64,000 nucleotides of DNA from Haloglycomyces albus DSM 45210 (GTDB taxonomy: Bacteria > Actinomycetota > Actinomycetes > Mycobacteriales > Micromonosporaceae), in assembly GCF_000527155.1 (NCBI RefSeq), contig NZ_AZUQ01000001.1, positions 3,051,889 to 3,115,888 of the forward strand. Reading direction: 5' to 3'. A model generated the notes under the pieces. That model saw only the letters and a list, made by a program, of their open reading frames with translations, was not told the origin of the DNA and searched no databases. The position numbers and the translations under genes were made by a program. Numbering within the stretch: the stretch's first letter is position 1; each line of letters starts with the position of its first letter. This document shows, in pieces, positions 26,363 to 55,157 of the stretch.

Positions 26363-26440
26363 ACACCTAAACCACCCCGCGAGCGCCGATACCGATTCCC
26401 GGCATAGTGCCGGAAGGCGCTCGCGGGGTGGTTTAGGTGT
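26363..26440. terminator. 25-bp perfect inverted repeat between convergent genes
   Basis: The 25 bases at 26363-26387 are exactly complementary to 26416-26440, and inside the loop CCGGCA-TAG-TGCCGG (26399-26413) forms a second hairpin. The right arm covers the last two codons and stop of the UvrA-like gene. It would act as a very strong terminator in both directions. CACACCTAA is also duplicated at the transporter stop (26336-26344) and in the left arm. Confidence 0.75.
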
Positions 26441-28796
26441 TGCTGTTGTCGGCGAGGTGTTTGCCGGTGAGTGTGGTGGGGTTGTCGATGAGTTGTTGTG
26501 GTGTGCCTTGGAAGACGATGTGTCCACCGTCGTGGCCGGCTTCGGGGCCGAGGTCGATGATGTGGTCGGCGTGTGCGATGACGGCTTGGTTGTGTTCGAT
26601 GATGATGACGGTTTTTCCGTTGTCGACGAGGTGGTCGAGTAGGTTGAGGAGTTGTTGGACGTCGGTGGGGTGGAGTCCGGTGGTGGGTTCGTCGAGGAGG
26701 TAGGTTCCGGCTTTGTCTTTCATGTGGGTGGCGAGTTTGAGGCGTTGTCGTTCGCCTCCGGAGAGGGTGGTGAGGGGTTGTCCGAGGTGGAGGTAGCCGA
26801 GTCCGACGTCGTTGAGGTGGGTGAGGATGGTGTGGGCGGGTTTGAGTGGGGCGGGTCCGTTGGGGTGGAAGAATTGTTGGGCTTCGGTGACGGGCATGGC
26901 GAGGATGTCGCTGATGTTTTTGTTGCCGAGGTGGTAGTTGAGGACGTCGGGTTGGTAGCGTTTGCCGTCGCATTCTTCGCAGGTGGTGGTGACGCTGGCC
27001 ATCATGCCGAGGTCGGTGTAGATGAGGCCGGCGCCGTTGCAGGCGGGGCAGGCGCCTTTGGAGTTGGCGCTGAATAGGGCTGGTTTGACGTTGTTGGCTT
27101 TGGCGAAGGCTTTTCGGATGGGTTCGAGGAGTCCGGTGTAGGTGGCGGGGTTGCTGCGTCGGGAGCCGCGGATGGTGCTTTGGTCGATGGCGATGGTGGT
27201 GTTGTCGTGTGGCATGGAGTCGTGGATGAGGGAGCTTTTTCCGGAGCCGGCGACTCCGGTGACGGCGGTGAGGATGCCGAGGGGGATGTCGACGTTGATG
27301 TTTTTGAGGTTGTGGGTGTTGGCGTTGCGGATTTCGATGGTGCCGTTGGGGGTGCGTGGGTTGGTGTTGAGGGTGATGTGGTCGTTGAGGTGTTGTCCGG
27401 TGAGGGTGTTGCTGTTGGTGAGTTGTGGGACGGTGCCTTCGAAGCAGATGTGTCCGCCGTCGGGTCCGGCTTTGGGGCCGAGGTCGACGATGTGGTCGGC
27501 GATGGTGATGGTTTCGGGTTCGTGTTCGACGACGAGGACGGTGTTGCCTTTGTCGCGTAGTCGGGTGAGGAGGGTGTTCATGCGTTGGATGTCGTGGGGG
27601 TGGAGTCCGGCGGTGGGTTCGTCGAATATGTAGGTGATGTCGGTGAGTGGGGAGCCGAGGTGGCGGATCATTTTGGTGCGTTGGGCTTCTCCTCCGGAGA
27701 GGCTTCCGGTGGGTCGGTCGAGGGAGAGGTATCCGAGTCCGATTTCGACGAAGGAGTTGAGGGTGTGTTGGAGGGTGTTGATGAGGGGTGTGACGGTGGG
27801 TTCGTGGAGGGTTGTGGCCCATTCGGCGAGGTCGTTGATTTGCATGGCGCAGGCGTCGGCGATGTTTTTTCCGTTGATGGTGGAGGTTCGGGCGGTTTCG
27901 TTGAGGCGGGTTCCGTGGCATCCGGGGCATTCGGTGTAGGTGACGGCGCGGTCGACGAAGGCGCGGATGTGGGGTTGCATGGCGTCGGGGTCTTTGTTGA
28001 GGAATGATTTTTTGACTCTGGGGATGAGTCCTTCGTAGGTGAGGTTGGTGTTTTCGATTTTGATTTTGGTGGGTTCGCGGTAGAGGAAGTCGTTGAGTTC
28101 TTTTTTGGTGTAGTTGCGGATGGGTTTGTTTCCGTCGACGTATCCGGATTGGGTGATGGTGCGGACGAGCCAGCCGTCGGGTTTGTAGTTGGGGATGGTG
28201 ATGGCGCCTTCGTTGAGAGTTTTGGTGTCGTCGTAGAGTTCGGTGAGGTCGAGGTCGGTGATGTGGCCGCGGCCTTCGCAGTGTGGGCACATTCCGCCGT
28301 TGACGGTGTAGGTTTTGTGTTCTGTTTTGCGGTTTCCGCGTTCGACGGTCATGGCTCCGCTGGCGCGTATGGTGGGGACGTTGAAGGAGTAGGCGTTGGG
28401 TGGTCCGATGTGGGGTTGGGCGATGCGGCTGTAGAGGATGCGTAGGATCGCGTTGGCGTCGGTGGCGGTTCCGACGGTGGACATGGTGTTGGCTCCCATG
28501 GGTTCTTGGTCGACGATGATGGCGGTGGTGAGTCCTTCGAGGACGTCGACGTCGGGTCGGGCGAGTGTGGGCATGAATCCTTGGAGGAAGGCGCTGTAGG
28601 TTTCGTTGATGAGTCGTTGGGATTCGGCGGCGATGGTGTCGAAGACGAGGGAGCTTTTTCCTGATCCTGATACGCCGGTGAAGACGGTGAGTCGGTGTTT
28701 GGGTAGTGCGATGTTGATGTTTTTGAGGTTGTGTTCGCGGGCGCCTTGGACGCGGATGTGGTTGTGTTGGTCGGCGCGGTGTTGTGCGGTGTTCAT
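26433..28796 (-). CDS. UvrA-like ABC ATPase (UvrA2/DrrC type)
   Basis: The 787-residue protein has the UvrA architecture of two ABC cassettes with inserted zinc modules. First Walker A GVSGSGKSS, zinc Cys in CPHCEGRG and CPGCHGTR, signature GSLSGGEAQR. Second Walker A GVAGSGKSS, zinc Cys in CPACNGAG and CEECDGKRY, signature LSGGERQR, then DEPTTGLHP. It is clearly shorter than housekeeping UvrA, which suggests loss of the UvrB-interaction insert as in the DrrC/UvrA2 group linked to DNA-binding drug tolerance. A GAAGGAG ribosome binding site precedes the ATG. The coding strand is extremely A/C-rich. Confidence 0.85.
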   Translation of the reverse strand: MNTAQHRADQHNHIRVQGAREHNLKNINIALPKHRLTVFTGVSGSGKSSLVFDTIAAESQRLINETYSAFLQGFMPTLARPDVDVLEGLTTAIIVDQEPMGANTMSTVGTATDANAILRILYSRIAQPHIGPPNAYSFNVPTIRASGAMTVERGNRKTEHKTYTVNGGMCPHCEGRGHITDLDLTELYDDTKTLNEGAITIPNYKPDGWLVRTITQSGYVDGNKPIRNYTKKELNDFLYREPTKIKIENTNLTYEGLIPRVKKSFLNKDPDAMQPHIRAFVDRAVTYTECPGCHGTRLNETARTSTINGKNIADACAMQINDLAEWATTLHEPTVTPLINTLQHTLNSFVEIGLGYLSLDRPTGSLSGGEAQRTKMIRHLGSPLTDITYIFDEPTAGLHPHDIQRMNTLLTRLRDKGNTVLVVEHEPETITIADHIVDLGPKAGPDGGHICFEGTVPQLTNSNTLTGQHLNDHITLNTNPRTPNGTIEIRNANTHNLKNINVDIPLGILTAVTGVAGSGKSSLIHDSMPHDNTTIAIDQSTIRGSRRSNPATYTGLLEPIRKAFAKANNVKPALFSANSKGACPACNGAGLIYTDLGMMASVTTTCEECDGKRYQPDVLNYHLGNKNISDILAMPVTEAQQFFHPNGPAPLKPAHTILTHLNDVGLGYLHLGQPLTTLSGGERQRLKLATHMKDKAGTYLLDEPTTGLHPTDVQQLLNLLDHLVDNGKTVIIIEHNQAVIAHADHIIDLGPEAGHDGGHIVFQGTPQQLIDNPTTLTGKHLADNSNT

Positions 28797-30322: not shown

Positions 30323-30375
30323 GATAAGCGATAGGCAAACGTTCAGCTTTGTCATTGCCCGGTATCGTTAATACC

Positions 30376-32691
30376 ATGCACGCGACTTCGACAACCTCCG
30401 CCCTGGGTATCGACTTCGGAACGACTCATACGGTCGCCCACCTACGTCACCACGACAATCGCATTACCGCGCAATTGTTCGACGGGAATACTCTGTTGCC
30501 ATCGGCCGTCTTCGCCGAAACCGACGGCTCTCTCACCACCGGTCGCGATGCGGTCGACAGTGGACGACATAACCCCGAACGTCTCGAACTCAACCCCAAA
30601 CGCCGCATCGACGACGGCAGTGTCTTCCTCGGAGCCGACGACTACCCCCTGGAACAACTGGTCGCCGCCGTCCTATCGCGAGTAAAAACCGAATGCGAAC
30701 GCACCGCCGCCGCGCTGGGACCGGTGACGATCACCGTTCCCGCCTCATGGGGTGCGACCCGGCGCCTGGTGATTCAGGATGCCGCCTCACAGGCCGGTTT
30801 CGGCCAGGTGACGTTGGTACCCGAGCCGGTAGCCGCAGCCAATCATTTTCTGAGCCTCAGCAATGTTTCGGTGCCCGACGGTGGCGCGGTGGTCGTGTAC
30901 GACTTCGGCGCGGGCACGTTCGACGCTACCGTTCTACAACGACAGGGTGGTGCGTTGAACGTGGTGGCATTGGACGGTTCTGATTCTCTCGGTGGTTTGG
31001 ACGTCGATCAGGCGTTGGTGGAATACCTGGTCGGTCAATATCCGGATGAGGATTGGTCATGGCTGAACTCCCCCGCTGGCACGCAACAACAACGTTGGGT
31101 ACGGGAATTCTTCGACGCGGTTCGTACCGCGAAAGAACGGCTGTCACGGCAGACGACTGCAGAGGTTCATCTACCGCATGGCAGCTCCGCCACTCATCTC
31201 ACCCGTGCTGAGCTCGACGAGGTGGTCGCTCCGCTGATTCGTCGTACGGTACGCACCACGCAAGGAGTGATTCGCGCCAGCGGTATCGGCCCTGACGCCG
31301 TAGCGGGTATTTTTCTAGTCGGCGGTTCTTCACGTATGCCCATTGTGGCCACAACCGTTCATGAACAGTTGGGCATGGCTCCCGTTGCTCTCGAACAGCC
31401 CGAGTTGGCCGTATCAGAAGGGGCGTTGGTCAATCCCGCCGCGGCAGCATCACCGCCTTCTCCTCCCCCTCAGGCATTTAGTCCTCCAGCCCCAGTGGAG
31501 CCGAATCGACCTCGTCGCCTACGTACGATGGCGGCCGTCAGTTCCGTCGCGGCCGTGGCAGTGGTAGCTCTAGTGGTCGCATTCGTGTTGCTTCCCGGTG
31601 ACGACAACGGTGACGGGACCGGTGGCCACATCGATGATGCCGCGAATTCGTCCTCTAGCGACGATACGACGGAGAGCTCGTCTCCCTCTACCGGACCGGA
31701 CGATGAGGTCGTCGACGATCCCGATTCAGACGTCGTCGACATCGATCAAGCGGCCTGGAACGACCCGGTATTGGAAGTCGACCCCGAGTTCACCGGAAAT
31801 ATCACCGCTACCACCTCGGTCGAAACCGCCTCCGGTCGAATGTTCGCCCTCGGCAGTCAAGGAGGGCGCGTGAGCCTGTGGGACGACGAGATGGGCCAGC
31901 ACATCGGTACCTTCACCCAACATTCGGAGGAAATACACACCATCCGTTTCGTCAGCTATGACGACACGCTTTGGGTTCTGTCACAGACCGACAGCGACGT
32001 GTACGTGTGGAACAGCTCCGATACCGGCGATTACACTGAAATCGAGCAGGATTACGACTACGACGCCGTTAAATGGGTCGGCCAGTATCGCGGCCAGATC
32101 GCCGTAGCCGAAGGCCATAAAAACGTGACCTTCCGAGGTCTTTTCACCGGCGAAAAAATCGATACCGTCCGTGGCGGCTGTTCCAACAACGCAGGTTCGG
32201 CCGTTGTCGAACAGGACGATACCGTCTACGTCGTTGCCATGTTCGACTGCGATGACGAACGCATCGGTGTCGTCAACGCTTCCGACGACGACGCCCCCAC
32301 CGTCGTCGAATCACAAATCCTCGACGAAACGGTCCGCGAACTCGGCGTCAACATCGTCAACGACAAAGCCTACGTCGCTTCCTATCAATCCAACGGACGC
32401 CTCCGGCTATGGTCGTTGGACAACCTGACGTTGATCCCCAATAACGTCACCGACCAATATCAAACCGTTGAGTGGGTAAAACCAATCAGACTGGACGGAC
32501 ACGTCGGGCTCGCGTGGAACGGCGATCAAGGGAGCGTGAAGTTCGCCGGGACCGAAAGCCCCACACCCGTCGGAGAGATCGAGCTGGACTCCGACGCGAC
32601 GCTCGGGCCGGTTTTCACCTACCGTGGCCATCCCGTGGTCTTGATCGCCACCGCGCAAGGAATGATCGAGTTCCGAAGTCTCGCTCACTGA
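30376..32691 (+). CDS. membrane-anchored Hsp70-type ATPase with predicted extracellular beta-propeller
   Basis: The 771-residue protein has an Hsp70/actin-fold ATPase domain (residues 10-352): phosphate 1 loop GIDFGTTHT, connect motif VVYDFGAGTFDATVL and adenosine motif GIFLVGGSSRMP. The substrate-binding domain of DnaK is missing. A Pro-rich linker (355-380), a basic stop and one membrane span (about 385-407) follow instead. After an acidic Ser/Asp linker (410-460) come repeated beta-strand units such as GGRVSLWDDEMGQHIGTF and TDSDVYVWNSSDTGDY, which look like WD40-type blades to the end. Topology suggests ATPase inside and propeller outside. TATCGT lies seven bases before the ATG (leaderless). 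Confidence 0.75.
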   Translation: MHATSTTSALGIDFGTTHTVAHLRHHDNRITAQLFDGNTLLPSAVFAETDGSLTTGRDAVDSGRHNPERLELNPKRRIDDGSVFLGADDYPLEQLVAAVLSRVKTECERTAAALGPVTITVPASWGATRRLVIQDAASQAGFGQVTLVPEPVAAANHFLSLSNVSVPDGGAVVVYDFGAGTFDATVLQRQGGALNVVALDGSDSLGGLDVDQALVEYLVGQYPDEDWSWLNSPAGTQQQRWVREFFDAVRTAKERLSRQTTAEVHLPHGSSATHLTRAELDEVVAPLIRRTVRTTQGVIRASGIGPDAVAGIFLVGGSSRMPIVATTVHEQLGMAPVALEQPELAVSEGALVNPAAAASPPSPPPQAFSPPAPVEPNRPRRLRTMAAVSSVAAVAVVALVVAFVLLPGDDNGDGTGGHIDDAANSSSSDDTTESSSPSTGPDDEVVDDPDSDVVDIDQAAWNDPVLEVDPEFTGNITATTSVETASGRMFALGSQGGRVSLWDDEMGQHIGTFTQHSEEIHTIRFVSYDDTLWVLSQTDSDVYVWNSSDTGDYTEIEQDYDYDAVKWVGQYRGQIAVAEGHKNVTFRGLFTGEKIDTVRGGCSNNAGSAVVEQDDTVYVVAMFDCDDERIGVVNASDDDAPTVVESQILDETVRELGVNIVNDKAYVASYQSNGRLRLWSLDNLTLIPNNVTDQYQTVEWVKPIRLDGHVGLAWNGDQGSVKFAGTESPTPVGEIELDSDATLGPVFTYRGHPVVLIATAQGMIEFRSLAH

Positions 32692-36909: not shown

Positions 36910-39189
<2,280 letters not shown>

Positions 39190-43082: not shown

Positions 43083-43579
43083 TCGCCAATGCGATTGGTG
43101 AAGGCGATGACGGCCTCCCGAGTCGTGGTGACACCGAGTTTCTTCCGCGCCGCGGCGATCCGCCGATTGGCCGTACGCAGAGCCACGAATTCGGCCTTCG
43201 CGGCGGCGGCGATGGTGGAACCGTCCGCCAGATGACGCAAAAGGGCCTCCTCTTCGACCGTCAGGATGGACGCGGGGGCGACGTCGGCGGCGCTCGCGGG
43301 TGCTTCCAAGCGGTGTAGGTCGTCGGCGAGCGCCTCGGCCAGTGGGGTGTGGGCGGTGGCGATGATGCCGCATCCTCGGGTGGCGGCGAGGAGGGCTTGG
43401 CCGAGTGCGTGTTCGTCGGCCACGGGGCCGTGGCAGACGATGCGTTGTTTTTCGAGGTCCCAGGTAGGGGTGGGGAGGGCGAATCCGGCGTGGGCCCGCC
43501 AGCCGCCGCGTACGGCGGTGCGGAGGAGGCCGGCGGCGTCGTTGGGATTGTTGCACACGTGTAGGGGCCGGTCGGTCAT
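43073..43579 (-). CDS. LuxR-type HTH protein
   Basis: The 168-residue protein has a C-terminal helix-turn-helix of LuxR type in which the usual motif is divergent (ILTVEEEALLRHLADGSTIAAAAKAEFVALRTANRRIAAARKKLGV). The N-terminal part has no recognised receiver domain. Its ATG overlaps the stop of the large LuxR regulator gene upstream (ATGA), so the two are cotranscribed and may act together. Confidence 0.7.
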   Translation of the reverse strand: MTDRPLHVCNNPNDAAGLLRTAVRGGWRAHAGFALPTPTWDLEKQRIVCHGPVADEHALGQALLAATRGCGIIATAHTPLAEALADDLHRLEAPASAADVAPASILTVEEEALLRHLADGSTIAAAAKAEFVALRTANRRIAAARKKLGVTTTREAVIAFTNRIGDQS

Positions 43580-45891
43580 GTTGTGTGTCCCTTTTGGTAT
43601 TTGACGGCGGCTTCGGTGCGGGTTTTTGCTCCGAGTTTACGCATGGCGCTGCGGATGTGTGTTTCGACCGTTTCGGAGGTGATGCCGAGGGTTTCGGCGA
43701 TGCGTCGGGTGGGGTGGCCGGCGGAGATGTGGTGGAGGATTTGTTGTTCGCGGCCGGTGAGGTCCATTCCACGGCTGGAGCGTTGGTCGCGTCGTAGTCC
43801 GAGACGGCGGAGGGCGCGTTTGATTTTGCCGTCGAGGACGGTCAGTCCGGCGTCTTCGGCGAGGTTTTCGGCGTCGAGGAGCAGTTGGGTGGCGGCGTCG
43901 CCGTCGGCGTGGTAGCCCGCGGCGAGGAGGGCGCGGATTTTTTCGCGAAGGCTGATGCCGTCCCATTGTTCGGCGGCGGTGTGGAAGTCGTCGGCGCGGC
44001 GTTGTTTCCAGGCGGTGAGGGTGTTGTCGACGGGGGTGGGCCAGCGGCCGCTGAGGGGAGTGGTGGGGGTGTGTCCTTGGTCGTAGGACAGCCATTGGTT
44101 GGTGATGTGGGTGAGTCCGGTGGCGAGGTCGACGGTGGGGGCGGTGTGTCGGGGTGGTTGGTGTTGGCCGTCCAGCCAGGCGTATTCGGCTTCGATCCAG
44201 GAGACGAGGGGGTGGGTGCGTCCGATGCCGTCGAGGTGGCGGGCGGCTTGGCCGAGGTCGCCGGTGTCGGCGGTGGCGAGGGCGAGGGTGGCGGCCAGGA
44301 GGGTGGCGATATCGTCGGGGAGGGGTCCGGATTCGGCGCGTTTGACCGAGGCGATGAGGTTGTCCAGTTGGGTTGACGATAGGGCGTTGGTGAGGGCGGC
44401 GAGGGCGAGGAAGCGGGCTTTCCAGGTGAGGTGTCCGCTGTTTCCGGCGTCGGCGGCGGCGGTGAGGGCGCGTTGTTTGGCGTCGGGCAGTTGGGCGTTG
44501 TTGACCGCTTGGTTGGTGCTTTTCCAGCGGCACCAGTAGGCGATGGTGTAGGCGCCTTCGGAGGCGGCTTGTTCGGCGGCGGCGTCGAGTCCTTGTCCGC
44601 GGGTGGCGGCGAGGGCGGCGTGGAGCGTGGGGTGGTCGGGTTCGCTGCCGTGGCGTTTGGTGATGTCGTCGATCATTTCGCTGGGGTTGGGGTGGGTGAG
44701 GAGGCGGAGGGCGTCGGTTTCGGGGTGGGTGTCGTTGAGTTGGTCGGTGAGGCCGCGGGCGGCGAGTGGGTTGGCGAGGGTGAGGTGGGCGTAGATTTTG
44801 GTGCGGACGGCGGCGGGGGTGTCGTCGTCGGCGAGGAGGCGGAGGGCGTGGGTGGGTTGGTGGTCTTTGATGGCGGCTTTGGCGGCGGGGAGTTTGTGTT
44901 GGTCGTTGATGGTGGCGGCGAGGGTGAGGGCGGCGGTGGCGTGGGTGGGTTCGCTGTCGGCGGCGGCCAGTGCGGTGGTTTCGGCTTGGGTGAGGTTTCC
45001 GGCGGCCCAGTGGTGGCGGGCGGATTCGAGTCCGTTGGTGGCTTCGGCGAGTTTGGCGTGGAGGGCGAGTCGTTGGGTGTCGTTGAGTGCACCGGCGGCG
45101 ATGGCGGCCATCCAGGGGCTGGTGGGTGAGAGGTAGTCGCCGTCGGTGTCGGCGAGTCCGGAGTCGCGGAGGCCGGTGGTGGCGGTGTCGCCGAGGAGGC
45201 TGTGGTGGGCGGGGCGGCCGAGGAGCCCGAGGGTGGCCAGGCCGGTGCGGAGGCCGGCGTCGGCGGCGGCGAGCGCGGTGGCGATGGAGTGGGCGGGGTC
45301 GCGTGGGGTGGTGTCTTTGGTGGTGTCGGGGGTGCGGGCGAGGGTGGCGAGGGCGAGGGGGTGGACGCCGGCGTGTTGGCGGATGTGTTGTTTTTGGTTG
45401 TCGGTGAGGTGGGGGTTGACGGTGTGGAGGAGGGTGTTGATGCTGTTGTCGTCGAGGGCGGGGATGCGGTGTATGTGGGCGCTGTCGGTCAGGTCGCGGG
45501 CGAGTTCGATGCCGGTGGTTCCGGCGGCGAGGATGGGGAGGTGTTGTGCCAGGTGTGGTAGCGCGGCTTGGGTGTGCGGATCACACCATTGAATATCGTC
45601 GATAACGAGGGTGGTGTTTTTCAGTCGTGATAGGGCCGCGGCGGCGAGGACGGTGGGTGAGTCGCTGGGTAGTCCGGCTTTGGTGGCGCGGATGAGTGCG
45701 AGGGCGGGGTGGTGGCGGAGGGCGGCGAGTCCTCCGGTGTGGACGACGCGTTGTCGCAGTTGCGCGCTGATGCGCTGTAGTAGGTGGGTGCGCCCCCACC
45801 CGGGTGGTCCGGTGAGGAGCTGCAACCCTGGTTGGGTGAGAGCGTGGACGGTGTGGTCGATAAGTTTGTCACGATCAGCAGGTGAACGCAC
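43576..45891 (-). CDS. large LuxR-family regulator with AAA/NTPase domain (LAL-like)
   Basis: The 771-residue protein has an N-terminal NTPase domain and a long helical middle, then a canonical C-terminal LuxR helix-turn-helix (LTGREQQILHHISAGHPTRRIAETLGITSETVETHIRSAMRKLGAKTRTEA). The Walker A reads GPPGWGRT (28-35), with Arg where Lys is expected, so ATP hydrolysis is doubtful; Walker B is VIDDIQW (96-102). The middle is rich in Ala/Leu/Thr and His, probably TPR-like. The GTG start has AAGGAG upstream. It diverges from the dynamin operon, 112 bases apart, and is the obvious candidate to regulate it. Confidence 0.8.
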   Translation of the reverse strand: MRSPADRDKLIDHTVHALTQPGLQLLTGPPGWGRTHLLQRISAQLRQRVVHTGGLAALRHHPALALIRATKAGLPSDSPTVLAAAALSRLKNTTLVIDDIQWCDPHTQAALPHLAQHLPILAAGTTGIELARDLTDSAHIHRIPALDDNSINTLLHTVNPHLTDNQKQHIRQHAGVHPLALATLARTPDTTKDTTPRDPAHSIATALAAADAGLRTGLATLGLLGRPAHHSLLGDTATTGLRDSGLADTDGDYLSPTSPWMAAIAAGALNDTQRLALHAKLAEATNGLESARHHWAAGNLTQAETTALAAADSEPTHATAALTLAATINDQHKLPAAKAAIKDHQPTHALRLLADDDTPAAVRTKIYAHLTLANPLAARGLTDQLNDTHPETDALRLLTHPNPSEMIDDITKRHGSEPDHPTLHAALAATRGQGLDAAAEQAASEGAYTIAYWCRWKSTNQAVNNAQLPDAKQRALTAAADAGNSGHLTWKARFLALAALTNALSSTQLDNLIASVKRAESGPLPDDIATLLAATLALATADTGDLGQAARHLDGIGRTHPLVSWIEAEYAWLDGQHQPPRHTAPTVDLATGLTHITNQWLSYDQGHTPTTPLSGRWPTPVDNTLTAWKQRRADDFHTAAEQWDGISLREKIRALLAAGYHADGDAATQLLLDAENLAEDAGLTVLDGKIKRALRRLGLRRDQRSSRGMDLTGREQQILHHISAGHPTRRIAETLGITSETVETHIRSAMRKLGAKTRTEAAVKYQKGHTT

Positions 45892-46003: not shown

Positions 46004-47506
46004 GTGTCGGGTTCGTTGGCGATGAAACTTAAACAGGCGGCGGAAGCGGTGTCGGGGTCGCTCACTCCTGAATCGAAGTCGGTCGCCGATGAAGTCGCCC
46101 AACGACTCTCTCAACCACTCACCGTAGCAGTAGCTGGACGTCTTTCCTCAGGCAAGTCCACCCTCGTGAATGCGCTCATCGGCCAACGGGTCGCGCCGAC
46201 CGCCGCGGGTGAATGCACCCGTGTGGTGACTCGTTTCCGTTATGGTCCGGCCGATCGCATCGAGGTGGTCACGAAATCGGGTGAACGGACACCTGTGCTG
46301 TTCGATGCCGACCATATGATACCCGCCTCGTTGCCGTGCCCGGTGGAGGAGGTTGACATGGTCGACGTGCAGTTGGCCTCCCAGGTGTTGGAAAATCTCG
46401 TGGTGCTGGATACGCCCGGTTTGCAGTCGGTGAACTCCGAGGTGTCCGATAAGGCCGCCGACACGCTTTTCGCCGCACCGTTTTCCGCCTCCACCGACGA
46501 GGGTTCGAAGGGAGCGGTCGCGGCCGCTGAGGCGATCATCTATGTGTTCACTCAGGCGGTGAAGTCCGATGACGTGGAGGCGTTGGAGGCGTTTTCCGCG
46601 GCCTCACATGCCGTATCGGGAACGCCCATGAATTCTTTGGCTCTGTTCAACAAGGTCGACAAGCTTGCTGCCGACGCCGGTTCCGACCCGTGGCCGGTGG
46701 CGACACCGTTGGCCGATGAACAGCTGACCTTGCTGCGACGTGTCGTTTGTGATGTGGTCCCGTTGGTGGGCCTGTTGGCCGAAACGTCCCAGGCGGGCCT
46801 GTTGACCGCCGCTGACGGTGAGGCTTTGCGGACTCTGGCGGGGATGGATGAGACCCAGTTGACCGTCATGTTGGCGTCGACCGAATTGTTCCACACTCAA
46901 CCGGCCCCTGTCGACGGTGAGGTTCGGCGTCGTCTTTTGGATCGTCTGGACCTGTACGGCATCAGCTTCGCCATCGCGCAGTTGCGTTCGCAGCCGCGCA
47001 TGTCGACCGGTGAACTGGTGCGTCTCCTGCAGGCCGCCTCCGGTCTGCCCCGTCTGCATTCCACTCTGCACCAGGTGTTCGCCAGTCGTGCCGACGTCAT
47101 CAAGGCCGGCTGGGGTCTGTCGCGGTTGCGTTCGCATGCGGCACAAGCGCAGGAGTCCGATCGCGATCTTCTCCACAACCTGGTGGAAGACATCGTTGCC
47201 GACCCCGCTTATCATCGACTTAAGGTCCTGCAGGCGGCCGGTCAGGTCACCAGCGGTCAGGTACGTCTCGAACCCGACATGGAAGCCGAGGCCGCTCGGC
47301 TGGCGCTGTCTCAGGATCCCGCGACGGTCTTGGGGATGCCTTCCGCCGGGACACAGGATCTGGCCGAGGCCGCCATCAAGGCGGCGGGCCGGTGGCGGGC
47401 GTTCGCCAATGGTGCCGCCTCGCCCCCTCAAGCGCGCGTCGCCCAGGAGATGGTGCGTGGCTTCAGCCTGATAGCGCGACAGCTGCGTTCTGCCGACAAC
47501 CAGTGA
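46004..47506 (+). CDS. dynamin-like GTPase, first of pair
   Basis: The 500-residue protein has a large GTPase domain: G1 GRLSSGKST (45-53), G2 Thr72 (GECTRVVT), G3 DTPG (136-139) and G4 NKVD (216-219). The C-terminal half is helical without a membrane segment. It resembles the bacterial dynamin-family proteins that occur as side-by-side pairs in actinobacteria (DynA/DynB of Streptomyces, IniA/IniC of mycobacteria). The GTG start has an AAAGGA ribosome binding site. The partner gene starts 40 bases downstream. Confidence 0.85.
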   Translation: MSGSLAMKLKQAAEAVSGSLTPESKSVADEVAQRLSQPLTVAVAGRLSSGKSTLVNALIGQRVAPTAAGECTRVVTRFRYGPADRIEVVTKSGERTPVLFDADHMIPASLPCPVEEVDMVDVQLASQVLENLVVLDTPGLQSVNSEVSDKAADTLFAAPFSASTDEGSKGAVAAAEAIIYVFTQAVKSDDVEALEAFSAASHAVSGTPMNSLALFNKVDKLAADAGSDPWPVATPLADEQLTLLRRVVCDVVPLVGLLAETSQAGLLTAADGEALRTLAGMDETQLTVMLASTELFHTQPAPVDGEVRRRLLDRLDLYGISFAIAQLRSQPRMSTGELVRLLQAASGLPRLHSTLHQVFASRADVIKAGWGLSRLRSHAAQAQESDRDLLHNLVEDIVADPAYHRLKVLQAAGQVTSGQVRLEPDMEAEAARLALSQDPATVLGMPSAGTQDLAEAAIKAAGRWRAFANGAASPPQARVAQEMVRGFSLIARQLRSADNQ

Positions 47507-47545
47507 CCGAACGACCCAACCGGCGGTGAGAAGAAAGTACACACT

Positions 47546-49435
47546 ATGACCGACAGCGACAACGACAGCAGCAATACCGAAAAACTGGCGAATCTGCGGG
47601 CCCTGTGCACCAAGGCCGCTTCCGCCGCGCAGGCTTCTCTCCGGTCGGTGGACTCCGCGGCCGCCGCCGAGGTCGACCAGGTGGCCCGCTGGCAGCCCGA
47701 TCGTCCTGTCACCGTCGTGGTCGGAGAAACCAAACGCGGGAAGTCGTCGCTGGTCAATTCGCTTCTCGGTACCCCCGGTCTCTCCCCTGTCGACGTGCGG
47801 GTCGCCACCAACTCCTACCTCGAATTCGCCTACGCCGAAGCCTCCAGTGTCCGCGCCTGGCTGCCGGGCAACAGTGAGCCGCTGCTGCTGTCGACCGGCG
47901 ATCTTCGCAACTGGGCCACCGCGCTCGGCGACTATCCGACCGGCTACGACCTGCCGCGTCGCATGCTCGTCGGTCACCCCGCGCCGTTGTTGAAATACGT
48001 CTCCCTGGTCGACACCCCTGGAACGGGTGGGTTGGAACCCGATCACGCGCAGATTGCTTTGGAGGCCGTCTCGCGTGCCACGTGTCTTCTCATGGTCACC
48101 GACGCGTCCTGTCCGTTGACCAAAACCGAACTTGATTTCCTCGCCGAAGCCTCCAGCCGAGTCAACTTCGTCGTCTTCGTGCTCACCAAGACCGACTCCT
48201 ACCCCGGTTGGAGAGACATCCTCGCGGAAAACCGGGCTCTGATCGACGCGCACGCTCCCCGGTTCCGTACCGCCCCGCATTTCCCCGTCTCCGCGTTGTT
48301 GGCCGAGAAAGCCCTCGCGTCCAACGGGACGGTCCGCCAAACCCTCGCGAAGGAATCCGGGATCGGCACGTTGCAGCGTTCGCTCGCCAAAATGGCCAAC
48401 GCGGGCGAGGCCCTGTTGGCCGCCAACGTCGCCCGAGCGGCTCGGTCCGAGTTCGCCCGTCTGGCCGCCAACGCCTCCGAAGAGGTCAAAGCCTATAATC
48501 CCGACCCTGACAAAGCCAAGGAACTCAAAGCGGAGAAAAAACGCGTCCTGGAAACCAAACAGGCCGAAACCCGCAAAGCCAATCTCGCCCTGCAGGTGGA
48601 AACCAACCGCGCGAAGGTCGAGATGACCACCACCGCACGCGAACACTTGACCGCGTTGCAGGAGCAGATCACCGGAGAGCTCGAAAAAGCCGATAAAACC
48701 ACCATCGAAGCGATGCCGCAGCGCATGGACATCGCTCTGCAAGCGGTATCGTCACGTCTGAGCGAGCAACTGCACCACCGGTTCATGCTGCTGGCCGACC
48801 GGGTTCTGCGGCAAGTGTTCACCGACGCGGAAATGCAGCAGGCGACCTCGCAGATTCAAACGCAACTACGTGCCGCCGAAGCCGGCCGCGCCACCAAGGA
48901 CTCCAACCCCGACGGGGCGCTCATGGTCGCCAGCGTCGGCGGTATGGCCTTCATGGCCGGACGTACCGCCGCAGGCGGACTCAGCGCCGGGCTCGGAGCC
49001 GTCGGCCTCGGTGTCGCCGGAGGAGCCGCCGGGATCGCACTGTCGGCCACCGGAGTCGGCCTTGGACTCGCCGCCGGGGCGTTTCTCCTCGCCAAACGTA
49101 AAATCGCCGGAAACCGGCAGGCCGCCAAAACCTGGGCGCGTGAAGTCATCACCGACGCCCGGGCATCGTTGAACGAAGAGATCTCTCTGCGGTTCAACGA
49201 AGTGCAGTACATCTTCTCCTCCACCCTCGATGAGGCGCTCCGCAGGCGCGGCAACGAATACGACTCCCGCATCGACGCCGCAGAAAGCGCCGTCGCCGCC
49301 GACAAAGCCGCGCGCAAAAAGAAACAGGAATCCCTCAAACAGCGGCGCGACTCCATGACCAAAAAAGTCAAACAACTCGACGAAGTACTCGCCAAAACTC
49401 GCGGCCTACTACCGAAGGAGAGCACCGATGGATGA
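47546..49435 (+). CDS. dynamin-like GTPase, second of pair, with membrane hairpin
   Basis: The 629-residue protein has G1 GETKRGKSS (60-68), G3 DTPG (156-159) and G4 TKTD (214-217). A long coiled-coil stalk (KAKELKAEKKRVLETKQAET...) follows, then a Gly/Ala-rich hydrophobic double span (about 460-515) and a charged C-terminal coil (KKKQESLKQRRDSMTKKVKQLDE). Such paired dynamins remodel or protect membranes, for example at sporulation septa or during stress. The hydrophobic paddle suggests this partner anchors the complex. Confidence 0.85.
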   Translation: MTDSDNDSSNTEKLANLRALCTKAASAAQASLRSVDSAAAAEVDQVARWQPDRPVTVVVGETKRGKSSLVNSLLGTPGLSPVDVRVATNSYLEFAYAEASSVRAWLPGNSEPLLLSTGDLRNWATALGDYPTGYDLPRRMLVGHPAPLLKYVSLVDTPGTGGLEPDHAQIALEAVSRATCLLMVTDASCPLTKTELDFLAEASSRVNFVVFVLTKTDSYPGWRDILAENRALIDAHAPRFRTAPHFPVSALLAEKALASNGTVRQTLAKESGIGTLQRSLAKMANAGEALLAANVARAARSEFARLAANASEEVKAYNPDPDKAKELKAEKKRVLETKQAETRKANLALQVETNRAKVEMTTTAREHLTALQEQITGELEKADKTTIEAMPQRMDIALQAVSSRLSEQLHHRFMLLADRVLRQVFTDAEMQQATSQIQTQLRAAEAGRATKDSNPDGALMVASVGGMAFMAGRTAAGGLSAGLGAVGLGVAGGAAGIALSATGVGLGLAAGAFLLAKRKIAGNRQAAKTWAREVITDARASLNEEISLRFNEVQYIFSSTLDEALRRRGNEYDSRIDAAESAVAADKAARKKKQESLKQRRDSMTKKVKQLDEVLAKTRGLLPKESTDG

Positions 49436-49934
49436 GTTCGACGTACCCGATGACAACAACGACAATGCCGATACCTCCCCCTCGCCCGGCATTGACGACA
49501 CCGATCCGTTCGACCTCACCGACATCGCCGTGCCCGACGACCTCAACACCGACCACGACGGTGACCTCAACGTCGACGACGACCCGTGGGACGAACACAC
49601 CGACACGACCGACAACGACCCCACCGGCACCGACGACCTCGGTGACGCCGAACCCGACCTGTTCCTCGACGGCCCCGACCCCACCGCCACCGGAGACGTC
49701 GACGCCGGCACCGACCCCGATACCAACCCCTACCAAAGCGAAACCCTGCCGCCACCGGCCGACCCCACCGGCCACTGGCCCGAACAGCTCGACTTCCCCA
49801 CCCCCAACACCCACGACGGATCCGACTGGATCAACCTCGACGCCCTCGGCGACACCGAAACCCAACCGTGGCAACCCACCATCGACACCGACGCCCTCCC
49901 CGACGTGATCGACGCCCTCCAACACCTCACGTGA
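49428..49934 (+). CDS. very acidic low-complexity protein
   Basis: The 168-residue protein is dominated by Asp, Thr, Pro and Asn (for example DIAVPDDLNTDHDGDLNVDD), ending in a short more ordered segment DWINLDALGDTETQPWQPT and a Leu-containing helix VIDALQHL. Its ATG overlaps the end of the second dynamin gene by eight bases, so translation is coupled. I recognise no family. It may be a disordered adaptor whose C-terminal helix binds a partner. Confidence 0.7.
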   Translation: MDEFDVPDDNNDNADTSPSPGIDDTDPFDLTDIAVPDDLNTDHDGDLNVDDDPWDEHTDTTDNDPTGTDDLGDAEPDLFLDGPDPTATGDVDAGTDPDTNPYQSETLPPPADPTGHWPEQLDFPTPNTHDGSDWINLDALGDTETQPWQPTIDTDALPDVIDALQHLT

Positions 49935-50004
49935 CCGCGCTTGCTAGGCTGACAACCCCTCACATGACGACACCGCCCCCGGCGAGAGTCCGAAAGACAC
50001 CACC

Positions 50005-51195
50005 GTGAAAAAACGACCACCGCACTACCAGACGCTCGACATACCCACCGACGCCGACCACACCACCGTCAAAGCCGCCTGGCAACGCGCCGCCCGCGCC
50101 ACCCACCCCGACCACGGCGGTGACGCCGAACAGTTCCAACGCGCCGCCACCGCCTACGCCGTCCTGTCCGACCCGCACTCCCGCGCCGAATACGACCTCC
50201 AACACCTCCCCCACAAACGCCGACGCCACCGGCCGAAACACCGCATCAAATCCTATAACCTCTCCCCCACCGAAAGCACCGGCACCGACCTCGCCCCCGT
50301 CCCCTGGCACCAACGCCACGCCACCTACGCGCGCCCCCGCCCCACACCCGTCAGCGCCCTGACACAACTGGCCGCCTGCGTACTCCTCTACCTCACCGGA
50401 GCCACCGCACTGCTCACCATCGCCGCACCCACCGGACTCATCGCCGCGGCCGCCACCCTTCCAGCCACCCTGATCTGCAGCTTCATCACCGTCGCGATCA
50501 CACTGTCAACCAACGGACACTACACCCCACAACAACCGCCCCGCCCCACCGCCGCCCACCTCATCGCCCCCAGCGTCAGCGCCACCGCCGCACTCCTCAT
50601 CATCGGCGTCGACCACCCCGGAGCATGGGCCGCCGCACTCACCCTCGCGGCCGCCACCCTCATCCCCTTCACCGCCCGACGCGCCCACTACACCACCACT
50701 ATATGGAAAAACGTCAAAGAAGCCGCGCGCAGCTACAACACCTTCGCCCCACCCGGACCACAACCCACCGTCCCCACCCCCGTCACCACCGTATTCAAAG
50801 AAATCCTCACCCACGTACACGGAACCAAACTATTCATCAACCTCCCCGCCGCCGACCGCACCATCCCCTACACCCTCCTCACCGGACGCCACCTCGCCCT
50901 CCTCACCACCACCGACACCCAGCCACAACAACACACCCCACACACCCTCCACCACGCCGAACACGCCCTCCAAGCCGCCTACCCCAACATCACCGTCACC
51001 ACCCACACCCTCTACCAACACCACCAACCCACCGGCCCCCACCACACCACCCTCCACGACCTCGACGACCGCCCATGCGAACAAATCGGCCAACTACTCA
51101 CCCACCACAACCACCACATCGACAACCAACTCCTCTACCTCCTCCGCCGCCGACTCGCCCACACCCCACAACCCCACCCCAGTCACACACCATGA
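50005..51195 (+). CDS. membrane J-domain protein
   Basis: The 396-residue protein starts with a J-domain: YQTLDIPTDADHTTVKAAWQRAARATHPD with the HPD at 34-36 and FQRAATAYAVLSDPHSRAEYD. It is followed by four hydrophobic segments in two hairpins (about 115-165 and 185-225) and a C-terminal soluble domain of about 170 residues rich in His, Thr and Leu. A J-domain should stimulate an Hsp70; a membrane Hsp70 without substrate domain lies at 30376. The GTG start has only a weak purine stretch upstream. Its stop overlaps the next start (ATGA). The C-terminal domain is unrecognised. Confidence 0.8.
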   Translation: MKKRPPHYQTLDIPTDADHTTVKAAWQRAARATHPDHGGDAEQFQRAATAYAVLSDPHSRAEYDLQHLPHKRRRHRPKHRIKSYNLSPTESTGTDLAPVPWHQRHATYARPRPTPVSALTQLAACVLLYLTGATALLTIAAPTGLIAAAATLPATLICSFITVAITLSTNGHYTPQQPPRPTAAHLIAPSVSATAALLIIGVDHPGAWAAALTLAAATLIPFTARRAHYTTTIWKNVKEAARSYNTFAPPGPQPTVPTPVTTVFKEILTHVHGTKLFINLPAADRTIPYTLLTGRHLALLTTTDTQPQQHTPHTLHHAEHALQAAYPNITVTTHTLYQHHQPTGPHHTTLHDLDDRPCEQIGQLLTHHNHHIDNQLLYLLRRRLAHTPQPHPSHTP

Positions 51196-52526
51196 ACCAC
51201 GACGCCGACACCGTCCTCACCCAACGACTCACCCACAACGCCCGCCTCGAAAACCTCCCCACCCCACCCCACAACGACACCACCGCCCACCTCATCGCCG
51301 CCCACATCAGCGCCCACCACCCTCACCGACGACGCTTCACCACCGACATCGCCCGCGCCCACACCGGCACCCGCCTCGCGCTCGCCGCCGCCACCACCCA
51401 CCCCGACCGGCCGTGGAAACACGCCCACCACGCCCACCACGACGACAGCGTCTGGTTTGAACAGTGCCTCCTTCTCGGCCACCCGCTCCACCCCCTCGCC
51501 CGCCTACGCGGCCATTTCAGCGCCGACGACATCATCGCCTACGCACCCGAACATCAAGCCCGATTCCCACTCGGCCTCTACCGGCTCCCACAGGTCACCG
51601 CCGACAACGACTGGCCCTGGTCCGACCGACACGGCCCCCTGCTCCCCCTCCACCCCTGGCAGGCACGCCGCTACGGCCTCACCGCCGTCGACGCCATCGA
51701 CCAAGCCGCCCCACTGTCGGGCCTGCGCACAGTATCGACCGGAACCCACCACGTCAAATGCTCCCTCGACGCTCAACTGACCTCGGCGATACGACACGTC
51801 TCCCCCACCGCACTACACGCCACCCGACTCACTCCCCGCCTCGCCGGTGTCCTCGACGATTTCGACATCACCCTGCAGAAAGAAACCGCCTGCTACGCCC
51901 ACGACGCCACCGGCAGGCCCCTGCCGCATTTGGCCGCCATCAGCAGACAGGCACCACCGGCCCGCACGCTACCGCTCGCCGCCGGCTGCGAGACCTGCCC
52001 GACCACCGGCGAACCACTGCTGGCTAAACTCCACCCCCATAACCCCCGGCAATGGTTCACCCGCCTGCTCGACCGCTGGCTGACTCCCTGCCTACGCCTG
52101 TTCGACCACACCGGAGTCGCCCTGGAAGCCCACGGTCAAAACTGCCTGACAACCTGCGACGACGACGGACTCCCCGACCGGCTCGTCTACCGCGACCTCG
52201 GAGGAGTCGCCTTCAGCCGCCACCACCACGCTCCCGACGGACTGACCCCGTCATTCCCCGAGGCACGTCGCCGCCTCACCGCCGCCGTATCCACCACCCT
52301 CCACCAATACGTCGACATCCTCGGCCACCACACCACCACGCCCGCACCGACCTGGTGGACACTGGTCGCCGACCACCTCACCAACCTCGGCGGCCCCACC
52401 GCAGAATTCCTCCTCACCCGACCCTGGCCACACAAAGCCCTCCTGAGGATGCGACTAGCCCATCGGCCCACCCACAACCAATGGGTTGACCGCCCGAACC
52501 CCTTGGGTCACAATATTGAACCATGA
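51192..52526 (+). CDS. NIS siderophore synthetase (IucA/IucC family), first
   Basis: The 444-residue protein belongs to the NRPS-independent siderophore synthetases, which join a carboxylate to an amine or alcohol via an acyl-adenylate. GHPLHPLARLRGHFSADDIIAYAPEH is the ATP-binding start motif, LPLHPWQ follows, and VALEAHGQNCL with YRDLGGVAFSR is the C-terminal active-site region. It is shorter than typical members at the N-terminus. Its ATG overlaps the stop of the J-domain gene, so it belongs to that operon. Confidence 0.85.
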   Translation: MNHDADTVLTQRLTHNARLENLPTPPHNDTTAHLIAAHISAHHPHRRRFTTDIARAHTGTRLALAAATTHPDRPWKHAHHAHHDDSVWFEQCLLLGHPLHPLARLRGHFSADDIIAYAPEHQARFPLGLYRLPQVTADNDWPWSDRHGPLLPLHPWQARRYGLTAVDAIDQAAPLSGLRTVSTGTHHVKCSLDAQLTSAIRHVSPTALHATRLTPRLAGVLDDFDITLQKETACYAHDATGRPLPHLAAISRQAPPARTLPLAAGCETCPTTGEPLLAKLHPHNPRQWFTRLLDRWLTPCLRLFDHTGVALEAHGQNCLTTCDDDGLPDRLVYRDLGGVAFSRHHHAPDGLTPSFPEARRRLTAAVSTTLHQYVDILGHHTTTPAPTWWTLVADHLTNLGGPTAEFLLTRPWPHKALLRMRLAHRPTHNQWVDRPNPLGHNIEP

Positions 52527-52548
52527 TCGACCCACCGGTGGCATCGAC

Positions 52549-54021
52549 ATGGTGACCCCCGCCGAACAACTTCTCCGCGCCGCCTGGCGCGAAGGACTCG
52601 GTGACGTACGAGCCCAACCCCCCGACGGCTACCGCCTCACCGACCTCCCCCTCAACCAAGCCCGCGTCGTCGAGCGCCCCACCACACCGCCCCACCCCGC
52701 CGACCTATCCGAGCACCTGTTCGGTCCCCATCCGGGGCTACAGGCCGAACTCCACAGCGCCCACACCGGCCACACCCTCGCCCACCAACGCCGGCAACGC
52801 CGCCAACACCTGTGGCGAGCGCTCGCCCGCCACAACCACCTGACCACCTTCGTCGACCTCGTCACCCGTTACGTCGACGACCCCAACCGTCGAGCCCGCT
52901 GGTTCGAACTCCTACAACCGCTCGGCCACCCCCTGCACCCGTGCGCACGCACCCGACTCGGCTGGACACACCATGACATGCGCTCCTACGACATCGAAAC
53001 GCCACGCCCGGTCGCCCTCGTCGTCGCCTATCACGACGGAGCCCTCCACCGCCACGACCCGGACGGCTTGTTGACCGTCGACGGCCGACCGGCAACGGTC
53101 ATGCACCCATGGCAATGGCGGACGACCGACCGGGGCGATCTCATCGATTCGGGCCGACGCCTACCGGCCTGGCCGACCACGTCGGTACGCACGCTGTACA
53201 GCCCTGATCTCAACGCCTATCTCAAAACCTCTCTTGACGTGTCGATTACCTCGACCCGACGAACCATCACCCCCCGCACCGCACGCTTGACCCCGCCGCT
53301 CAGCCAACATATTCAGCGCCACCTGGCCCTACCGTCCCACCGCCTGCTGGAGGAACGCGCCTCCACCTGGCATCCCGCCGACGGCAACCACACCCTCGTG
53401 CTGCGCGCTCCGCTCCCCGACACCAACGACGGGGTGACGGTTCCGTGCCATGCGCTTCCGTCCGCTTCCCCGGTGACCGGACGCAGTATCGCCGCGGAGT
53501 TGGCGCTTGCCGATCGTCGGGGGCCGCGCCGGTGGTGGCGTGATTATGTGTGGACGGTGTTGCCGCCGTTGTTTCATCTTTTGGTGGGGCACGGTATTGC
53601 GTTGGAGGCTCATGGGCAGAATTGTCTGGTGGAGTTTCGTTCGTCGCGGTCGTGGCGTTTGTGGAGTCGCGATTTCGGTGGGGTGCGGTTGTATCGGGCC
53701 CATGTGCCCGCTGTGGTGCGGCCGGAGTCCGTCGGTGTGTGGTTGACGGATTTTTGGGGCCTGCGGCACCATCTGTCGGCGAGTTTGTTTCATAATCATT
53801 TGGCGCCGATTGTGGTGGCATTGTCTGATGACGTGGGAGGGTCGCCGTCGTCGTGGTGGAGGACGGTGGGTCGTTGTCTGCGTGGCATGGGTTTGCCGCG
53901 AACCGATCGGGATTTCTTCGAGCGTGCGCCGTTGCCGGGGAAGGCTTTGTTGACCGCGAAGCTGAAGGGCGCGACCGGCGTGATGTTGTCGGCTCCCAAT
54001 CCTTTGTGGAGCGCGTCGTGA
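52549..54021 (+). CDS. NIS siderophore synthetase (IucA/IucC family), second
   Basis: The 490-residue protein has GHPLHPCARTRLGW, MHPWQW, GIALEAHGQNCLVEF and SRDFGGVRLYR, the same landmarks as its neighbour. ATG 52549 is taken as start with a GGTGG upstream; the in-frame reading upstream has no homology. The next gene's GTG overlaps this stop by four bases. Base composition of the coding strand changes from C-ending to G/T-ending codons near 53490, inside the gene, with no break in the protein family match. Confidence 0.85.
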   Translation: MVTPAEQLLRAAWREGLGDVRAQPPDGYRLTDLPLNQARVVERPTTPPHPADLSEHLFGPHPGLQAELHSAHTGHTLAHQRRQRRQHLWRALARHNHLTTFVDLVTRYVDDPNRRARWFELLQPLGHPLHPCARTRLGWTHHDMRSYDIETPRPVALVVAYHDGALHRHDPDGLLTVDGRPATVMHPWQWRTTDRGDLIDSGRRLPAWPTTSVRTLYSPDLNAYLKTSLDVSITSTRRTITPRTARLTPPLSQHIQRHLALPSHRLLEERASTWHPADGNHTLVLRAPLPDTNDGVTVPCHALPSASPVTGRSIAAELALADRRGPRRWWRDYVWTVLPPLFHLLVGHGIALEAHGQNCLVEFRSSRSWRLWSRDFGGVRLYRAHVPAVVRPESVGVWLTDFWGLRHHLSASLFHNHLAPIVVALSDDVGGSPSSWWRTVGRCLRGMGLPRTDRDFFERAPLPGKALLTAKLKGATGVMLSAPNPLWSAS

Positions 54022-55157
54022 CGCGGTTGTGGGATTGGGTTGGTAACCGGTGTCGTTCGGGTGCGATGTGGGTGTGGGAGCCGTGGCGGTTTGTTGAGCG
54101 TATGGAGCTGTTGCGGCGTTGTTTTCCGCAGTGGACGTTTCTTTACGCGCAGAAGGCCAATCGTAGTTTCGTGGATGTTGCCGCTCGTGTCGCCGACGGG
54201 GTCGAGTGTGCGTCGGCCGGTGAGGTCAAGCGGGCGTTGGCGGTGGGGGTGCGTCGTATTGCGGTGGCCGGTCCGGTGATGACGCGGGAGTTTCTGGCGT
54301 GGTTGTCTGGGTGTGCGGTGGAGGTGACGGTGCATGTGGAGAGCCTGCAGCAGCTGCGGTTGTTGGGAAGTGTGGACTGGTCGCGCCCGGTGGCGTTGCG
54401 GGTGAACGCGTCGGTGGCGTCTGAACTTCCGGCGACGCATCATATGACCGGTCTGGTGCCGTTCGGTATTGAGCCCGAGCGGATTCCACTCGCGGTGGAG
54501 ATGGCGCACGCCGTGGGGTTGGAAGTGATGGGGTTCAGCCATCATGCCGTGTCCAATTGCCTGGATGCCGAGGCGTATGCGGAGCATGTGGCGCGGTCGG
54601 TAGGTCTGTCGTGGGAGTTGGCCCGCCTCGGCGGTATCGAGTTGCGTTATATCAATGTCGGGGGAGGTTTGGGTTCGGATCCGAGGGGAGAGTGCATTGA
54701 TGTGGTGCGGCTGGCGGGTTTGGTTCCCTCACTTCCCGCCGGGGTGGAGTTGGTGTGTGAGCCGGGGCGGTTTCTCGCGGCTCCGGCGGGCCACTACGTC
54801 TGTGAGGTGGTTGATGTCAAGTCCGCCGGTGGTCTGACGTTTGTTCTGGTCAAGGGCGGTACGCATCATTTTCGTCTGCCGGCGGCGTGGGGTTACGGGC
54901 ATCCGTTCACCGTGGTGCCCGATGGGTGGTGGCCGTATGAGTGGGATCGCCCGGAGGTGGTCGATCGCGAGGTGCGGGTGTGTGGGGAGTTGTGCACGCC
55001 GCGGGACGTGTTGCATCCGGGGCAGTATGTGTCGCGGTTGCGGGTGGGCGATCGCCTGGTTTTTTCACACGCGGGCGCCTATGGACGCGATATTTCCCAT
55101 TCGCAGTTTCTGTCGCATGAGAAAGCCGGAACCGTCACTCTCGATACGTGGCGTTAG
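54018..55157 (+). CDS. PLP-dependent group IV (fold III) decarboxylase, DAP/ornithine-decarboxylase-like
   Basis: The 379-residue protein has the PLP lysine in FLYAQKANRS (Lys46), the His/Gly loop INVGGGLGSDP, ELVCEPGRFLAAPAG for phosphate binding and CGELCTPRDVL with the conserved active-site Cys. In siderophore operons such enzymes (for example SbnH of the staphyloferrin B pathway) decarboxylate an amino-acid intermediate to give an amine for the NIS enzymes. The GTG start overlaps the preceding stop (GTGA). It has strongly G/T-ending codons. Confidence 0.85.
   Translation: MTRLWDWVGNRCRSGAMWVWEPWRFVERMELLRRCFPQWTFLYAQKANRSFVDVAARVADGVECASAGEVKRALAVGVRRIAVAGPVMTREFLAWLSGCAVEVTVHVESLQQLRLLGSVDWSRPVALRVNASVASELPATHHMTGLVPFGIEPERIPLAVEMAHAVGLEVMGFSHHAVSNCLDAEAYAEHVARSVGLSWELARLGGIELRYINVGGGLGSDPRGECIDVVRLAGLVPSLPAGVELVCEPGRFLAAPAGHYVCEVVDVKSAGGLTFVLVKGGTHHFRLPAAWGYGHPFTVVPDGWWPYEWDRPEVVDREVRVCGELCTPRDVLHPGQYVSRLRVGDRLVFSHAGAYGRDISHSQFLSHEKAGTVTLDTWR

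Follow-up and report, generated by a model that had tools for sequence, protein, structure and literature searches.

In mycobacteria, the iniR-iniBAC locus encodes a large AAA/LuxR regulator beside a pair of dynamin-like proteins, and in M. smegmatis a dnaK-like gene lies next to iniR (PMC5760070). IniA of M. smegmatis is reported to be a membrane-fission dynamin (PMC6715688). Low iron induces IniA and IniC in M. tuberculosis, where both are required for the formation of vesicles in which the lipid siderophore mycobactin exits the cell (PMC12124568, PMC9132128, PMC11077946). Two further kinds of described systems are relevant here, namely the class C J-domain proteins with a membrane anchor, and the staphyloferrin B, achromobactin and Francisella rhizoferrin pathways, in which NIS synthetases act together with a decarboxylase of the SbnH/AcsE/FigC group.

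Here, we analyzed a 64,000-nucleotide stretch of the Haloglycomyces albus DSM 45210 genome (the window), whose locus is made up of three blocks: an Ini-type dynamin locus, a membrane J-protein, and an operon of two NIS synthetases and a decarboxylase (NIS1-NIS2-dec). A preliminary description had listed seven tightly packed genes in one direction, and all seven are indeed present on the forward strand, with the overlaps exactly as given: 8 bases between dyn2 and the acidic gene (49428-49435), ATGA between J and NIS1 (51192-51195), and GTGA between NIS2 and dec (54018-54021). The gene assignments were likewise upheld by Pfam, which identified two Dynamin_N proteins, a DnaJ domain, two proteins with IucA_IucC and FhuF domains, and an Orn/DAP decarboxylase. 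The neighborhood, which is real and conserved, combines known kinds of parts in a new way, and we consider it probable that it comprises three units rather than one machine.

The dynamin locus and its chaperone neighbors

The dynamin locus opens with a LuxR-type regulator of 771 aa with an AAA domain (43576-45891, reverse strand), which is divergent from the dynamins and matches the Pfam families GerE (E 3e-15) and, below the curated cut-off, AAA_16 (E 2e-6). It is followed by dyn1 (46004-47506, forward strand; 500 aa; Dynamin_N, E 6e-15) and, after a gap of 39 bp, by dyn2 (47546-49435, forward strand; 629 aa; Dynamin_N, E 7e-15), both encoding dynamin-like GTPases. A comparison of dyn2 with M. 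smegmatis IniA (6j72) gave an E-value of 1e-21 over residues 52-608, which is most of the protein. The last member of the block is an acidic low-complexity protein (49428-49934, forward strand) with 49 Asp or Glu residues and not a single Lys or Arg, for which no family match was found in Pfam or NCBIfam. In the window and in its relatives alike, these acidic proteins contain almost no basic residues; those of the relatives share a conserved (S/A)LARFW-like tail at the C-terminus, of which the window has a degenerate form.

The resemblance to iniR-iniBAC thus extends over several genes. The regulator is IniR-like in its Pfam architecture and conserved position beside the dynamin pair, dyn2 is a sequence relative of IniA, the adjacent dyn1 can be likened to IniC by its size and Dynamin_N domain, and a gene of the Hsp70 family is found at many of the loci studied here, as the dnaK-like gene is beside iniR. 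The two arrangements differ in that the short dynamin comes first here, in that the acidic protein is present and no IniB was recognized, and in that a GrpE-like gene occurs in relatives and a J-protein and a NIS operon are attached. Across the GTDB family, the regulator, dyn1 and dyn2 occur together in nearly all sampled dynamin loci. The same block, usually including the acidic gene, stands without J and NIS genes in 24 sampled loci of other genera, and relatives of the acidic protein follow dyn2 in about 29 loci, with J and NIS either present or absent.

Chaperone genes were also found in this region. In about half of the relatives' loci, counting separate small open reading frames only (the iterated HMM also pulled in dyn2 sequences), a small GrpE-like gene lies between dyn1 and dyn2 (among them L023, 5803-6369; L056, 4393-4959; L060, 4327-4917; L063, 14037-14606; L067, 4324-4938; L090, 14073-14720), and all six of the GrpE-like proteins tested scored above the Pfam cut-off. 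The gene is absent from the window, where the dyn1-dyn2 gap leaves no room for it. An Hsp70-family gene lies close to the dynamin locus in many genera, and the Hsp70-family protein of the window (30349-32691, forward strand; PF00012, E 4e-41), which carries a WD40/beta-propeller-like C-terminus, is 45% identical over 346 aa to its counterpart near the dynamin locus of another genome (G006). Given these GrpE-like and Hsp70-family genes at the loci of relatives, chaperone genes therefore accompany the dynamin locus beyond the J-protein.

The membrane J-protein and the probable siderophore operon

The J-protein (50005-51195, forward strand; PF00226, E 1e-13) begins 70 bp after the acidic gene and bears an HPD motif, a tripeptide that is invariant in an alignment of 16 orthologues. 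In its structural model, the J domain is predicted with confidence; the model also has four long hydrophobic helices, which we interpret as membrane segments, and, at the C-terminus, an alpha-beta domain. A fold search with the whole model returned matches to the J domain only. When the C-terminal part was searched separately, the matches were mostly to PD-(D/E)XK nucleases and non-significant (E 0.07 or more, Z below 8), and so a PD-(D/E)XK fold is only suggested for this domain; its strands have no invariant acidic residues, and the catalytic residues would accordingly be missing from such a fold. The HPD-bearing J domain, the hydrophobic helices and the lack of a zinc-finger domain are shared with class C J-domain proteins that have a membrane anchor. 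The C-terminal alpha-beta domain, resembling a dead PD-(D/E)XK fold, sets this protein apart from them, as does its confinement to one actinobacterial clade, where, among the matches listed, it always lies beside NIS genes. As a partner, the J-protein could recruit the Hsp70-family protein encoded in the window or any of the other four among the five Hsp70-type genes in the genome.

The NIS operon starts with NIS1 (51192-52526, forward strand), a short-form NIS synthetase of 444 aa (IucA_IucC, E 6e-20; FhuF, E 7e-23). It is followed by NIS2 (about 52516-54021, forward strand; IucA_IucC, E 5e-23; FhuF, E 2e-22), with alternative starts at TTG 52516 and ATG 52549 that give 501 and 490 aa, respectively. 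Both domains exceed the Pfam cut-off in both proteins. The NIS1 motifs GHPxHP, LRT, EAHGQN and YRD are invariant across orthologues, and NIS2 also retains its active-site motifs. The third gene, dec (54018-55157, forward strand), encodes a PLP decarboxylase of the SbnH/FigC type with the N- and C-terminal Orn/DAP decarboxylase domains, and its closest solved relatives are 6knh and 6knk (E 2e-47), the latter being SbnH (PMC7857480). In SbnH, Arg304, Trp309 and His379 contact or lie near the citryl carboxylates of the ligand (PMC7857480). As read from the alignment, dec keeps these three residues and replaces Lys347 with Arg. Since an SbnH-like decarboxylase retains the citryl residues and both NIS enzymes retain their motifs, the predicted product of the operon is likely a citrate-based siderophore.

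In its enzymes the operon resembles the staphyloferrin B, achromobactin and rhizoferrin pathways, and the citryl-binding residues of SbnH are largely preserved. Three features differ: the NIS enzymes of 444 and 501 aa are shorter than the about 580-620 aa of those pathways, neither precursor nor exporter genes were recognized alongside, and a DtxR/IdeR-like box is present in some relatives of the window. The genes of the operon overlap by 4 bases at both junctions in most loci. In five Glycomyces loci (L124, L127, L128, L129 and L131) NIS2 and dec are fused into a single gene, and in L055 NIS1 and NIS2 apparently form one open reading frame of 973 aa.

Several other features of the window were recorded. 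Third codon positions in the regulator, acidic, J and NIS1 genes (43576-45891 and 49428-52526) are rich in C (0.67-0.75) and poor in G (0.06-0.14), and this usage is reversed in dec (G 0.54, C 0.18; 46004-47506 and 54018-55157 served as the contrast set); the GC skew swings from +0.44 to -0.50 inside 8 kb. On the reverse strand, 26433-28796 encodes an ABC ATPase, possibly UvrA-like, that shows weak similarity to the DnaJ CXXCXGXG pattern. Also on the reverse strand, 36910-39117 encodes a terpene synthase in which the C-terminal domain of family 2 is matched in two stretches; it may be a two-domain enzyme of the geosmin type.

Conservation and predicted transcription of the linkage

When about 85,000 species genomes were scanned, the full-length J-protein was, among the matches listed, confined to the clade of the window, a group of soil and salt-loving actinobacteria, and 396 genomes from elsewhere in the phylum yielded J-domain matches only. 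In the dyn2 tree, a 100/100 branch separates the entries that bear the J-protein from the rest. The genes J, NIS1, NIS2 and dec follow the dynamins in six genera, namely that of the window, Glycomyces, Stackebrandtia, Phytomonospora, Actinorhabdospora and one more, and the neighborhood of J-domain and IucA/IucC genes proposed earlier as a check thus recurs in at least six genera and in many other genomes. NIS genes follow J in all of the at least 26 named J loci whose contig continues, which disposes of the objection that no second genome might carry the linkage and rules out chance gene proximity. In one genome (G004) the contig ends within the J gene, and the assembly yielded no IucA_IucC gene. 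As J never occurs away from NIS genes among the matches listed, some link between them is favored.

The converse does not hold, and NIS1-NIS2-dec is found without J in g7 (Actinoplanes-like) genomes and in g9. In g7 about 20-25 kb separate the dynamins from the operon, which is downstream on the same strand. In g9, which is without a close dyn2 homologue, the operon lies close to a gene that is the neighbor of the regulator in other loci, as in a remnant of the same region. The dec tree is compatible with vertical descent. These observations bear on the view that the neighbors were simply co-inherited from an ancestor of the family and have no functional relation, to which we give a little less than an even chance. 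Both the g7 arrangement, which suggests that the region may be ancestral, and the dec tree speak for co-inheritance; it sits less well with the gene order having been kept even though the J orthologues share only about 22-31% identity with that of the window and the genes flanking the locus differ between genera. The simplest history would be an old neighborhood that became tighter in the ancestor of Glycomyces and Stackebrandtia.

The preliminary description had further proposed that translational coupling of all these genes in one operon was the basis of a joint function, a proposal that the relatives contradict with separate promoter-like elements, intergenic gaps and separate occurrence of the parts. 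The J/NIS1 ATGA overlap is unique to the window among 18 loci measured, and in the 17 relatives the gap between J and NIS1 is 39 to 179 bp. Many loci also have extra genes between the acidic gene and J. We scored these regions with a general DtxR/IdeR iron-box consensus. All six loci of Stackebrandtia, Phytomonospora and Actinorhabdospora carry a box with 13-15 of 19 matching positions, located 10-91 bp after J and ahead of NIS1 (shuffle P of 0 to 0.003 each; background of 0.3 per 10 kb). The NIS operons of the window, Glycomyces, g14, g7 and g9 yielded no such box. In most Glycomyces loci the -10 element TACAGT lies a few bases ahead of the NIS1 start. Upstream of NIS1, g7 loci share a different motif, GCGTCCTAGGACGCTAGGTT, of which g9 has an altered version (L107, L110, L116); this suggests another regulator there. 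Upstream of J, conserved TAG-TT elements are present (GGTAGATTGG in Glycomyces and GTAGTAGGTTC in Stackebrandtia). Judged from sequence, the NIS genes of the relatives hence seem to start from their own promoter, and gap lengths, iron boxes and -10 elements together rule out one conserved operon for them. Near dyn1 no iron box was found, which likewise rules out co-regulation of the dynamins through such a box.

For the genus of the window itself the picture may differ. The ATGA overlap and the lack of a clear NIS1 promoter on sequence inspection mean that J and NIS1 may be read from a single transcript there. One could go further and suppose that the NIS promoter was lost in this genus, that J-NIS1-NIS2-dec is one translationally coupled transcript, and that this transcript is possibly driven by envelope stress via the IniR-like regulator. 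The uniqueness of the overlap, the absence of both an iron box and a clear -10 element upstream of NIS1, and the common strand of all the genes are consistent with this scenario. The 70-bp stretch between the acidic gene and J, where a separate J transcript may have its -10 (TAGGCT, 49945-49950, forward strand; weak in the window), argues against it, as does the reliance on one genome of the genus, in which promoters of other types could be missed. We regard it as possible, and on balance lean against it.

Three probable units and a possible dynamin-siderophore tie

We therefore return to the reading that we prefer, a conserved neighborhood of three units. In the first unit, the IniR-like regulator would control the IniC/IniA-like dynamin pair and its acidic partner; the dynamins probably remodel membrane or shed it when the envelope is stressed, and in many relatives would be helped by GrpE-like and Hsp70-family proteins. 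The second unit would be the J-protein confined to this clade, which probably recruits Hsp70 from its anchored position in the membrane. In the third, the two NIS synthetases and the SbnH-like decarboxylase would build the citrate-based siderophore, from an operon presumably iron-regulated in some relatives. Early in the history of the family, the NIS operon would have been located in the same chromosomal region as the dynamins; in the ancestor of the Glycomyces/Stackebrandtia clade it would have moved directly downstream of them, with J in between, and the position would then have been retained.

A tighter relation has been considered as well, in which the dynamins, J and Hsp70 bud siderophore-carrying vesicles and the NIS product is exported by way of the dynamin block. 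An export or iron-linked membrane role keeps some force because M. tuberculosis needs its iron-induced IniA and IniC to form vesicles that carry siderophore (PMC12124568, PMC9132128). In support of this notion, mycobactin is packed into low-iron vesicles there, the adjacency has been retained in every checkable named locus despite large sequence divergence, and no siderophore exporter was recognized among the window genes adjoining the NIS operon. The fit is nevertheless poor, as mycobactin is hydrophobic and a citrate siderophore is expected to be water-soluble; moreover, the iron boxes are found at NIS1 and not at dyn1, the dynamins occur without NIS genes in most genera, and NIS genes occur without J in others. 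A functional link between dynamins and siderophore is plausible though unproven, and we judge vesicle export as such unlikely. The fuller version, in which the dynamin pair with its own Hsp70-GrpE-J set sheds vesicles or reshapes the membrane and thereby releases the citrate siderophore of the adjoining operon, we likewise hold to be improbable. If true, it would be a dynamin-driven siderophore release system with both halves chromosomally fixed across one actinobacterial clade.

Beyond this locus, the chaperone neighbors raise the question of whether the dynamins of bacteria depend on chaperones in the way that eukaryotic vesicle proteins do. The literature that we searched contained no discussion of this question, and nothing linking a dynamin with GrpE in an operon or with DnaJ/Hsp70. 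Most work on Ini-type dynamins comes from mycobacteria, in which they have been tied to iron-induced, siderophore-carrying vesicles. A clade of other actinobacteria in which Ini-type dynamins stand beside a siderophore operon is a simple and safe setting in which to test how general the tie between dynamins and siderophores may be.
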